Below, one piece after another: positions 684 to 3,425 of a stretch of DNA of 15,164 bases. The position numbers were made by a program, and so were the translations under genes. This stretch comes from Planctomycetia bacterium (lineage in GTDB: Bacteria; Planctomycetota; UBA1135; GCA-002686595), in assembly GCA_005778045.1 (NCBI GenBank), contig SXKQ01000145.1:1-15164 (forward strand), read 5' to 3'. Every line of letters begins with the position of its first letter. The first letter of the stretch is position 1. The notes beneath the pieces are model-generated. The model was not told where the DNA came from. It did no database searches and saw nothing but the letters and a program-made list of their open reading frames with translations.

Positions 684-1943
684 TCAGAGCCCGAACGCGC
701 CGCCCCAAGCGTCCGCCGCACCCGCGAAGCGCGCGGGATCGAAGAAGCGCGCGCTGAACGCGCCGACGGGCGCGCCTTCGAGCAGCTGCGCGACGCCCTC
801 GCCCACCGAGGGCGCGAGCTTGAAGCCGTGGCCCGAGAAGCCCGAGACGATGAACAGGTTCTGGAAGCCCGGGTAGGCTCCGATGAGCGCCTGCGCGTCG
901 GGCGTGAGCGTGTACCAAGCCGCGAGCGTGCCGGCGTCCGGCTGCGCGGCGTAGCGCGGCAGGCGACGCGCGAGAACGTCCCGCGACCAGCGTGAAAACT
1001 CGGGGGAGACGGTCTCTTCGAGCGTGTCGGGATCGTCGAGCACGTGGTCGCGCTCGTAGTCCATGGCGCCGACGCGCGTGCGCTCGCGCCGCGGCTCGCA
1101 GCGCGCGTAGTAGCCGTGCTCGATATCGAGCAGCACCGGGTGCGCGGGCTCGGCCTCCGATGACGCGGCGAAGCGCGGGTCGAACTCGGCGTCCATTCCA
1201 CCGGAGAGCGTCGGACGCGTGCGCGTGCGCTCGGGCGGCATCGCGAGGAAGTGCTGCTCGGGTCGTACGACCTTGAGCGGCAGATCGACGCCCGCACGCT
1301 GCAGCAGGCGGCGCGTCCACGGGCCGGCCGCGATCACGATGCGCTCGCAGTCGAAGTCGCCATCGCTCGTGCGCACGCCGCGCACACGCGCGCCGTCGAG
1401 GATGAGCTCCTGCACCTCGACCCCCGGGCGCGCCGTCGCTCCGGCTCCACGGGCCACTGCCACGAAGGCTTCGACCGTGCGCTGTGGATCGACGAAGCCC
1501 GCACCGGGCTCCCATGCGCCGAGCGCGCCGTCGGACACGTCGATGCCAGGCACGAGTTCGCGCATGCGCCGTGCGTCGACGAGCTCGACCTCCGCTCCGC
1601 ACTCCTGCATCAGCGCGGCGTTGCGCGCGACGAGCTCGACGGTCCCAGGCCGGCCCGGACCACCGATCGTGAGCACGCCGCTGCGCGTGAAGCCGATCGG
1701 GCGACCATGGCGTGTCTCGAAGCTCGCGTAGTCTCGCAAGCTGTCGCGCGCCATGCCGACGAGCTCGCGGTCGCTGTAGAACTGCCTGCAGATCGCGCCC
1801 GAGCGGCCCGAGGAGCCGGCGCCGAAGTGACGGCGCTCGAGCAACAGCACCGGCTTCTCGATCGGATCCGTCCGGCGCGCGCGAGCGAGCGCGATGGAAG
1901 CTCCCATCACCCCGCCGCCGACGATCAGCGTGTCGACTCGCAT
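684..1943 (-). CDS. FAD-dependent oxidoreductase, DAO / sarcosine oxidase beta-subunit type
   Basis: This 419-residue protein starts with a dinucleotide-binding fold (IVGGGVMG, residues 7-14, the GxGxxG that binds the FAD ADP moiety). The family motif GSSGRSGAICRQFYS lies near residues 43-57 and the C-terminal flavin-contact motif SGHGFKLAPSVGEG at 370-383. Such enzymes oxidise secondary or primary amines or amino acids such as sarcosine, glycine or D-amino acids to imines. The substrate cannot be assigned. At the AWYTLTPD motif (342-349), where monomeric sarcosine oxidases carry the Cys that links FAD covalently, there is no Cys, so FAD is probably non-covalent. Start: ATG at 1943, just before the Rossmann strand. 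It has no Shine-Dalgarno; GATCAT sits 8 bases upstream. No other Sox subunits lie beside it. Confidence 0.88.
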   Translation of the reverse strand: MRVDTLIVGGGVMGASIALARARRTDPIEKPVLLLERRHFGAGSSGRSGAICRQFYSDRELVGMARDSLRDYASFETRHGRPIGFTRSGVLTIGGPGRPGTVELVARNAALMQECGAEVELVDARRMRELVPGIDVSDGALGAWEPGAGFVDPQRTVEAFVAVARGAGATARPGVEVQELILDGARVRGVRTSDGDFDCERIVIAAGPWTRRLLQRAGVDLPLKVVRPEQHFLAMPPERTRTRPTLSGGMDAEFDPRFAASSEAEPAHPVLLDIEHGYYARCEPRRERTRVGAMDYERDHVLDDPDTLEETVSPEFSRWSRDVLARRLPRYAAQPDAGTLAAWYTLTPDAQALIGAYPGFQNLFIVSGFSGHGFKLAPSVGEGVAQLLEGAPVGAFSARFFDPARFAGAADAWGGAFGL

Positions 1944-1981
1944 GGCGCTCGATGATCGCGCGGGCGCGGCGCGAGACGGCG

Positions 1982-2017
1982 CAAAAAGACAGCAACCCCG
2001 CCCGGAAGCGGGGTTGC
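1982..2017 (-). terminator. Intrinsic terminator of the minus-strand RNA
   Basis: A perfect 9-bp inverted repeat (GCAACCCCG at 1992-2000, CGGGGTTGC at 2009-2017) with an 8-base loop is followed, reading the minus strand, by TGTCTTTTTGC. GC-rich stem plus T run is the classic intrinsic terminator layout on the minus strand only. No minus-strand protein gene lies upstream, so it implies a transcript from within 2018-2290. It lies 38 bases before the start of the oxidase gene and would insulate that gene from the RNA. Confidence 0.7.
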
Positions 2018-2257
2018 CTAGAGGAAGTCAGCACCCGGAGCGAGGGGATCGCGACCGCGCCGGCCAAGCGAGGGGGTATGTCGGCCGGGGTCAAACCCGG
2101 GTGTGGGCTTCTCCCCGCCCCGATTACGCAGGTTGGCGGCCGCCGGGGGCGGGAAAGTGCCCGGAATTGCGAAGTCGTGGCTCCACCACCGGGTCTTGGG
2201 GGCGATGCGGAGTCCAAGCCCAAGATCTTGTGGCCCTTGGGCGCCCGCTCCTCTGCA
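2018..2257 (-). ncRNA. Structured non-coding RNA, 6S-like candidate
   Basis: No convincing protein is encoded here. Read on the minus strand, the ends pair as a closing stem: AGAGGA (2249-2254) with TCCTCT (2020-2025), then GCGCCC (2239-2244) with GGGTGC (2031-2036), separated by an internal loop. Inside is a strong stem, TTTCCCGCCCC (2146-2156) with GGGGCGGGGAG (2111-2121), extended past an internal loop by GGGC/GCCC (2159-2162 and 2105-2108). A further hairpin, CCGGG-TTTGAC-CCCGG, spans 2085-2100. Several pairs are G-U in the minus-strand RNA and would be A-C mismatches on the other strand, so the fold favours minus transcription, as does the terminator. The order stem-GAG-AAGCC-hairpin resembles E. 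coli 6S RNA, which binds RNA polymerase. Length (about 240 nt) is longer than the typical 180-200. The 5' end is a guess. GCCCAAG/CTTGGGC (2218-2224 and 2236-2242) offers a competing hairpin. The 6S identity is an inference; a structured RNA is better supported. Confidence 0.55.
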
Positions 2258-2264
2258 CTAGGAT
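2237..2264 (+). promoter_or_regulatory. Weak candidate promoter for ispG
   Basis: TTGGGC (2237-2242), a 16-base spacer and TAGGAT (2259-2264, four of six matches to TATAAT) would start transcription about 20 bases before ispG. It would overlap the 5' end of the opposing RNA gene. Match quality is modest and no other evidence supports it. Confidence 0.22.
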
Positions 2265-2291
2265 GACGCGCCCTTTGGGGGCTACCCACCG

Positions 2292-3425
2292 ATGATTCCC
2301 CCGCGCACGACCCGCACCATCCAGATCCGCCACCTGAAGGTCGGCGGCTCGGCCCCCATCGCCGTCCAGTCCATGGCGGCCACCCAGACCCGCGACATCC
2401 CGGCCACCCTCCGGCAGGTGCGCATCCTCGAGGAGGCCGGCGCCGACCTGATCCGCATCGCGGTCGACAGCCAGGCTGATGTCGACGCGCTGGTGCAGAT
2501 CCGCGCTCAGACGAAGAGCCTGCTCTCGGTCGACCTGCAGGAGAATTACCGCCTCGCGGAGAAGGTGGCGCCCTACGTCGACAAGCTCCGCTACAACCCC
2601 GGGCACCTGCACCACCACGAGAAGCAGAAGCCCGTGGAGGAGAAGGTCGCGTACCTCGTCGGCATCGCGCGCCAGCACGGACTGGCCCTGCGCATCGGCA
2701 TCAACGCCGGCTCGATCGCGCCGGCCTACAAGGAGCGCTTCGGCGAGGACCATGTCGCGGCGATCGTGGCCTGCGCGGTCGATCACTGCCGCATGGTCGA
2801 TGCCCTCGGATTCGGCGACTACGTTGTATCCATCAAGGACTCCGACCCGCGCCTCGTCGTCGACGCCAACGTGCGCTTCGCAGCCGAGCGTCCCGACGTG
2901 CCGATCCACCTCGGCGTCACGGAAGCGGGCATGCCGCCCGAGGGCATCATCAAGACGCGCATCGCCTTCGAGCAGCTGCTCGCGCGCGGCATCGGCGACA
3001 CGCTGCGCGTCTCGCTGACCGTGCCGTTCGACGACAAGGGCCTCGAGATCAGGGTCGGGCGCGAGCTGATCGCCGACATCGAGGCCGGCCGCTTCCGCTC
3101 GGTGCCGCCGAACTTCTTCGACGGGCTCAACATCATCGCCTGCCCGTCGTGCTCGCGCGTCGAGAACGCGCGCTTCATCGAGCTCGCCGCGGACGTCAAG
3201 CAGATGACGGCCTACGCCAAGGAGCACGACCTGACCATCGCCGTCATGGGCTGCCGCGTGAATGGCCCGGGCGAAACGGACGATGCCGACCTCGGCCTGT
3301 GGTGCGGCCCGAACTTCGTCAATCTCAAGCGCGGACCGGCAGACGCGGGCACTTTCAGCTATGACGAGATTCTCGGCGCGCTGCGCCACGAGCTCGACGC
3401 GCTGATCGTCGCGCGCGCCAAGTAG
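2292..3425 (+). CDS. ispG: 4-hydroxy-3-methylbut-2-en-1-yl diphosphate synthase (IspG/GcpE)
   Basis: IspG is the [4Fe-4S] enzyme that reductively converts MEcPP to HMBPP, the penultimate step of the MEP isoprenoid pathway in the cytoplasm. The 377-residue protein has the family opening [21 protein letters not shown], a TIM-barrel body with YNPGH (101-105), and the C-terminal Fe-S domain. The three cluster cysteines are visible as CPSC (Cys284, Cys287) and GCRVNGPGE (Cys321), with the fourth ligand Glu328. Length fits the short bacterial form without the extra domain of plant and chlamydial enzymes. Start: ATG at 2292, nine codons before the conserved TI motif. No clear Shine-Dalgarno is present; only a G run lies upstream. 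It stands alone, and the next gene starts 57 bases on. All key residues are present. Confidence 0.97.

Follow-up and report, generated by a model that had tools for sequence, protein, structure and literature searches.

A candidate small regulatory RNA with C-rich loops between ispG and an oxidoreductase gene in Planctomycetota

We have identified a candidate structured RNA on the minus strand of a 15,164-nt stretch of planctomycete DNA (the window, meaning the whole stretch analysed), and comparison with related genomes supports a conserved part at approximately 2118-1983 (-), ~135 nt in length. This part comprises a stem with side hairpins that expose loops with runs of C, followed by a terminator. 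The element probably encodes, as a gene standing on its own with a dedicated promoter and terminator, a small regulatory RNA of ~135 nt that acts in trans and whose C-rich loops would pair with G-rich stretches of mRNAs. As far as searches of Rfam and the literature go, it appears to be a new RNA family of a known functional kind.

The source of the DNA is a planctomycete. The closest IspG (97% identical) is that of an uncultured planctomycete metagenome-assembled genome (MAG; locus L001, genome G001, isolate name Erken), and those that follow by IspG are Planctomycetota MAGs, with the complete genome of Poly30 (L027, 73%) among their number; several of the closest MAGs are from lakes. The first-pass annotation had placed an RNA at 1982-2257 in a gap between genes; the gap was confirmed, and lies between a gene for an FAD-dependent oxidoreductase (DAO) and the divergent ispG (Table 1). 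A probable ispG promoter was read by eye on the plus strand; ATCCTA, the complement of its TAGGAT, occurs near ispG in the window and in six of the seven closest loci, and a simple promoter/terminator scan of 1500-3000 did not return this promoter (2237-2264). At one related locus (L005, 1536-3228), unrelated sequence of ~1.5 kb, which may have been inserted, parts the RNA and DAO from ispG, the RNA having stayed with DAO.

Table 1. Features of the RNA candidate and its surroundings (positions in the window)
Feature	Coordinates	Strand	Evidence and remarks
FAD-dependent oxidoreductase (DAO)	684..1943	-	PF01266, E 6.3e-53; start ~40 nt past RNA terminator
Intrinsic terminator of RNA	1983..2018	-	Stem-loop 2018-1991, T run 1987-1983; identity 0.93 over 2018-1991
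Structured core	2019..2116	-	P0 2116-2108/2027-2020; P1 2101-2096/2039-2034
Structured core, inner helices	2019..2116	-	P2 2093-2081/2067-2052; small P3 2051-2049/2043-2041 (P3 by eye)
C-rich motif 2, AUCCCCUC, P3 loop or junction	2042..2049	-	UCCCCUCG invariant in 8 aligned sequences
C-rich loop 1, CCCCCUC, apical loop of P2	2070..2076	-	CCCCUCG invariant in 8 aligned sequences; hairpin-loop test
Probable transcription start (~2121-2116) and conserved RNA 5' end GGGGAGAAGC	2107..2121	-	Identity 0.94 over 2116-2107; start inferred
-10-like block, CTGCGTA (relatives CTGCGGA)	2125..2131	-	Mean identity 0.96 over 2131-2125
-35-like block, TTTCCCGCCCC (relatives TTTCCTGCCCC or similar)	2146..2156	-	Identity 0.73 over 2157-2146 versus 0.42-0.54 around, 7 sequences
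Probable ispG promoter: TTGGGC 2237-2242, 16 nt, TAGGAT 2259-2264	2237..2264	+	Read by eye
ispG (GcpE), divergent neighbour	2292..3425	+	PF04551, E 3.4e-95

Pairwise identity among seven sequences aligned over 1983-2260 divides the region into two unlike halves. The 5' half of the element as first drawn (2257-2117) is mostly unconserved, with identities of 0.48-0.54 over 2257-2158 and 0.42 in the variable stretch between two promoter-like blocks that this half contains. Identity is 0.94 over 2116-2107, 0.65 over 2106-2092, 0.82 over 2091-2032, 0.76 over 2031-2019 and 0.93 over the terminator (2018-1991). The earlier description of 1982-2257 as a structured minus-strand RNA holds for strand and kind, while the conserved part is the shorter one given above.

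The structure of this core is backed by compensatory changes. In 10 aligned copies, 95.4% of pair cells are paired, 15 cells are changed on both sides (reached by none of 500 shuffles), seven pairs carry changes on both sides (reached by three of 500), and the covariation score exceeds those of all 500 shuffles and all slid versions; kinship among the sequences inflates such counts, and this alignment, like that of the rows of the second model described below, was fitted to the structure and so leans towards it. By hand count, 35 of the 259 pair cells are G-U and would be mismatches if read on the other strand, so the minus orientation assigned at first sight is right. A model built from the core 2116-2019 aligned in 8 sequences (R1) scores the window at 102.3 bits, the window being itself one of the eight. 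Thirteen of the 154 genomes of the class match R1 at E <= 0.1, with one full match per genome: seven strongly (74.9-107.4 bits), two more weakly and ~1.3 kb from ispG (G007, G008), and four weakly (E 0.012-0.078). In Poly30 the RNA lies within L027:3723-3902 (-). Outside the class this narrow model, run with strict filters on a sample of 392 genomes of the phylum, found nothing, since the three matching genomes were all already known from the class. A second model (R2), derived from a deeper group, comprises one hairpin and the terminator; searched within the class, it matches 13 of the 154 genomes at E <= 0.01, the E-values of both models being rough. Its 14 distinct rows show changes on both sides in 14 of 22 pairs and 98.7% of cells paired, neither of which was reached by any of 500 shuffles. 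Single-sequence folding in the deeper group gives two C-rich loops, one at the apex of a stem and one on a second hairpin, together with the terminator. A stricter cut removed four partial rows of the opposite strand from one alignment (A9). Together with the hairpin-loop test described below, the conserved core and the covariation seen with R1 and R2 bear out the fallback reading of the first-pass annotation: a structured RNA on the minus strand that belongs to no assigned family and has a terminator of its own.

The helices initially proposed across the gap did not survive this comparison. Given its composition, 1982-2257 does not fold unusually well (z -1.57, matched by 11 of 200 shuffles), and neither does the plus strand (z -1.06, 28 of 200); thermodynamic stability is of little use as evidence here. 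The stem said to close the element by pairing its ends keeps 3-6 of 6 pairs in the seven aligned sequences, and an 11-bp internal stem keeps 6-11 of 11. A second hairpin (CCGGG-TTTGAC-CCCGG) is indeed present, with 4-5 of 5 pairs kept, but conflicts with the conserved stems. Taken as a set, these helices have 79.7% of cells paired (reached by 15 of 500 shuffles) and only two cells with changes in both partners (reached by 42 of 500), and covariation among relatives is almost nil. The pairing between 2218-2224 and 2236-2242, supposed to act as a switch, falls, as judged by eye, on what is likely the -35 of ispG on the plus strand. We have rejected the whole arrangement, switch included, as a mixture of promoter-like DNA, ispG promoter DNA and RNA.

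The same holds for the proposal that the element is a 6S RNA binding RNA polymerase, which we consider extremely improbable. It had been prompted by the folded minus strand and by a GAG-AAGCC order, and the pieces (GGGGCGGGGAG, AAGCCC, CCGGG-TTTGAC-CCCGG) do occur in that order; they are, however, promoter-like DNA mixed with the 5' end of an RNA that is not 6S. The 6S family (RF00013) is unmatched at the locus, being absent from the nine Rfam matches for 1900-2330 at E <= 10. It matches 12 of 22 related genomes, once per genome and either on a different contig or at a distant place, with five matches over the cut-off, and the closest relative (G001, IspG 97%) has a separate 6S of 47.9 bits; judged on the genomes of relatives, then, another 6S gene exists. 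In place of a long closing stem around a central bubble, the relatives show a decayed stem (3-6 of 6 pairs, seven sequences) and C-rich hairpin loops, and the helices first proposed show almost no covariation. While both are structured small RNAs of the same genomes, 6S thus differs from our element in locus, fold and upstream sequence: by eye, the nine 6S loci inspected have TAG- or TAC-type -10 elements and are without the two-block motif. In G001, G003 and Poly30 the 6S RNA lies ~3.5-5.3 kb from the 3' end of 16S on the same contig (L082, L083; G020:C1:2924148-2924309).

The terminator noticed at the outset, a GC stem-loop at 2018-1991 (-) followed by a T run, is real and conserved. It is the sole terminator-like site in 1500-3000, although the scan alone is weak because shuffled sequence yields a mean of 0.4 such sites against the one found; the site is however conserved in relatives. 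The accompanying claim that no protein gene could use this terminator was mistaken, as DAO starts ~40 nt beyond it on the same strand, and in L001-L007 the terminator ends 30-85 nt before DAO by our own reading. The folded RNA might therefore be a 5' leader of DAO, carrying an attenuator terminator and sensing a ligand, yet tblastn (E <= 1e-10) finds no DAO within ~3.7 kb past the RNA at nine loci that bear it (L010-L013, L029, L031, L034, L036, L037), so that the RNA does not always precede this gene; at L019 and L023 DAO lies within ~50 nt of ispG, leaving no room for the RNA. Because the RNA is present at loci where DAO was not found and DAO adjoins ispG at these two loci, attenuation of DAO is unlikely, though it may hold for the nearest kin of the window. 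It could also be argued that the conserved DNA is regulatory DNA of the divergent genes from which no RNA is made, as high-GC DNA folds easily. The covariation, the strand-specific loops and the conserved terminator make this very unlikely, as does retention of the element ~1.3 kb away from ispG in L008 and L009.

We followed the C-rich loops of the RNA through 76 regions upstream of ispG. These were 88 regions minus 12 taken as second copies of genomes, of which 11 were confirmed (no further identical pairs were found); the twelfth, L192, is a distinct genome without the motif, so that the true base is 77. An IspG match exists in 115 of the 154 genomes of the class, and the extra regions came from 49 genomes with a close, near-complete IspG (>= 66% identity), a set that leaves out genomes with IspG of ~40% identity and the 39 without a match. 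On the RNA strand, CCCCTC occurs 74 times in 48 of the 76 regions (shuffle mean 26.9, max 41), versus 19 occurrences of GAGGGG, the opposite strand, in 18 regions (shuffle mean 23.6), and ATCCCCTC occurs once each in 23 of the 76 (shuffle mean 0.89, max 4). The element is not universal, since 28 of the 76 regions are without CCCCTC. In a hairpin-loop test, in which the motif was held fixed, its 24-nt flanks were shuffled and loops of hairpins of at least 5 pairs were counted, 59 of 72 motifs fell in hairpin loops versus 20.9 expected, and 5 of 17 versus 4.1 expected on the other strand; three regions (L005, L008, L009) had been centred on the element by similarity or model instead of on ispG, which slightly favours the count. 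A looped motif was found in 44 regions, one of which (L021) has it within the DAO reading frame, probably by chance, and three regions have the motif solely outside a hairpin. Divergent relatives keep C-rich loops on other stems upstream of ispG and, by eye, stems vary widely between groups while the loop is constant. In some divergent relatives (L162, L169, L176) it is a terminator-like hairpin that carries the C-rich motif in its loop (L169: CCCACCGAGATCCCCTCCCGGTGGG), which looks as though the loop were displayed by the terminator.

Upstream of the RNA, many relatives carry a motif of the form TTTCCTGCCCC-N17-CGGA, in which ~17 nt separate a TTTC(C/T)TGCCCC-like block from the CGGA downstream. 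The window copy departs from the exact pattern by one base per block (in the second, T for the G of relatives), with the spacing fixed: its CGTA starts 17 nt after the first block, like CGGA in relatives. The two-block motif is probably, we infer, the promoter of the RNA gene and read by an alternative sigma factor. Matches to the exact pattern numbered 16 in 9 of 21 genomes and none for a reversed control, the genomes having been chosen partly as carriers of the element and 7 of the 16 matches being the element's own promoter. Allowing one mismatch in 61 genomes gave 29 matches versus 21 for the control by hand count, hardly above control. Of the nine matches away from the element, three stand before FG-GAP repeat genes at a distance of 62-70 nt (L099, L117, L217; PF01839). 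One precedes a starch-synthase-type gene by 51 nt (L219; PF08323), and another a mechanosensitive-channel gene (L208; PF00924). The match at L211 coincides with the beginning of a regulator-like reading frame and by eye may be due to chance, that at L214 is unclear by eye, and the last two belong to the copies of a second noncoding stretch that is C-rich (L210, L215). The placement before FG-GAP, starch-synthase-type and mechanosensitive-channel genes hints at a regulon, and the best reading may be that of a promoter common to the RNA, a second C-rich RNA and a few genes.

That second conserved noncoding stretch (L210:1233-1552 (-) and L215) spans ~260 nt and is 84% identical between the two genomes. 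The same promoter pattern stands at its start, one of its hairpins has a C-rich loop (UCCCCACCCCCUCCCGGGAU), and it carries a terminator of its own. At E <= 0.001 it matches 16 of 154 genomes, clearly in four (G001, the query's own, G005, G002 and G060), by the terminator part alone in two (G003, G006) and by short stretches in ten.

Comparison with known families gave no assignment. No Rfam family reaches its gathering score anywhere in the window, or comes near it at the element (stretch 1900-2330 and seven loci). The best listing, the Pseudomonas rnk leader (RF01772; 29.4 bits, E 0.0041 versus a cut-off of 55 bits), was rejected; its alignment at the locus covers largely the terminator hairpin. 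The closest described counterparts are small RNAs with C-rich loops, a class with which the element has in common C-rich motifs in the hairpin loops of a conserved structure, backed here by covariation. A terminator and conserved promoter-like blocks are also seen in the sequence of the element. The 6C RNA of Actinobacteria (RF01066) is likewise a free-standing small RNA with two C-rich stem-loops (PMC9569102), typically of six C each (PMC4046766), and is reported to pair through these loops (title of PMC6486639). The loops in the window have 5 and 4 C, and those of some relatives (L026) 6 and 6; 6C RNA differs in phylum, and the planctomycete RNA has a P0/P1 stem and junction and another overall architecture. 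RF01066 was unmatched in the window stretch and in seven loci, and a search of 14 genomes gave no match over the cut-off and 14 sub-threshold matches, none at the element, with a weak control in that only 4 of 14 control genomes matched and none, Corynebacterium glutamicum included, passed the cut-off. Membership of the 6C family as modelled was therefore rejected, with a weak control in this one of three tests.

Two further precedents are known from Xanthomonas and Rhizobiales. In Xanthomonas, according to PMC3771888, C-rich apical loops of sX13 act on G-rich motifs near translation starts, with Hfq dispensable; the likeness lies in the C-rich loops as described there, and sX13 differs in having three stems and three loops. 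In Rhizobiales, the account of SmelA075/SmelA099 (PMC3927594) gives repeated hairpin loops with an anti-Shine-Dalgarno-like motif on varying stems, as here, while their motif is CCUCCUCCC versus AUCCCCUC in the planctomycete RNA, and SmelA075 is described there with several copies per genome versus one full R1 match per genome. The Rhodopirellula-1 motif is a candidate structured RNA of Proteobacteria and Planctomycetes that carries no Rfam number in a table of PMC2864571; both it and our RNA are candidate structured RNAs, a likeness of description. Our literature searches listed no small RNA of this sort in Planctomycetota, the one planctomycete candidate named being the Rhodopirellula-1 motif.

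These precedents suggest how the RNA may act. An alternative sigma factor would probably recognise the two-block promoter (in relatives TTTCYTGCCCC, 17 nt, CGGA) and so start the RNA at ~2120, and the strong intrinsic terminator would end it. The body between would be a stem presenting the loops CCCCCUC and AUCCCCUC, which by analogy could pair with G-rich stretches near the ribosome-binding sites of mRNAs and block translation, as for sX13 and 6C RNA. On this analogy the RNA probably represses mRNAs with G-rich leaders. A small check on Poly30, in which a crude ORF picker called 193 gene starts in 20 stretches of 20 kb each, found GAGGGG in 1 of 193 starts, no enrichment, and no Shine-Dalgarno signal either; the check counts neither way because the sample is small and start codons are uncertain, and as these starts gave no support the target step stays a proposal.

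Two other modes of action deserve weighing. The C-rich loops might bind a protein, as a sponge or scaffold, with no pairing to mRNA; this would suit loops that are kept while stems change and the lack of target enrichment at Poly30 gene starts, but no partner is known and the precedents with such loops act by pairing (PMC3771888; title of PMC6486639), so we think it rather improbable. The other, a tentative idea to which we give slightly more weight, envisages an alternative-sigma regulon with at least two C-rich small RNAs (that of L210/L215 being the other), in which AUCCCCUC might serve as an anti-Shine-Dalgarno decoy and collectively dampen the translation of mRNAs whose leaders are G-rich. 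The 16S tail is canonical (CTGCGGCTGGATCACCTCC exact in G001, G003, G009 and Poly30; among the matches listed for G019 and G022, only inexact), so that a single base separates AUCCCCUC from the anti-Shine-Dalgarno stretch AUCACCUC; the decoy is proposed because AUCCCCUC copies this part of the 16S tail but for that base. Pairing of the C-rich loops of a free-standing small RNA with G-rich mRNA stretches remains our preferred reading.

The candidate RNA family described here combines fixed loops and a terminator with a promoter-like motif, and offers a direct entry to RNA regulation in Planctomycetota: genes that may be co-regulated can be named from the motif, and targets predicted from the loops. 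Finally, should C-rich loops have evolved independently in Actinobacteria, Xanthomonas, Rhizobiales and planctomycetes, this would point to one strategy of pairing having emerged more than once among GC-rich genomes.
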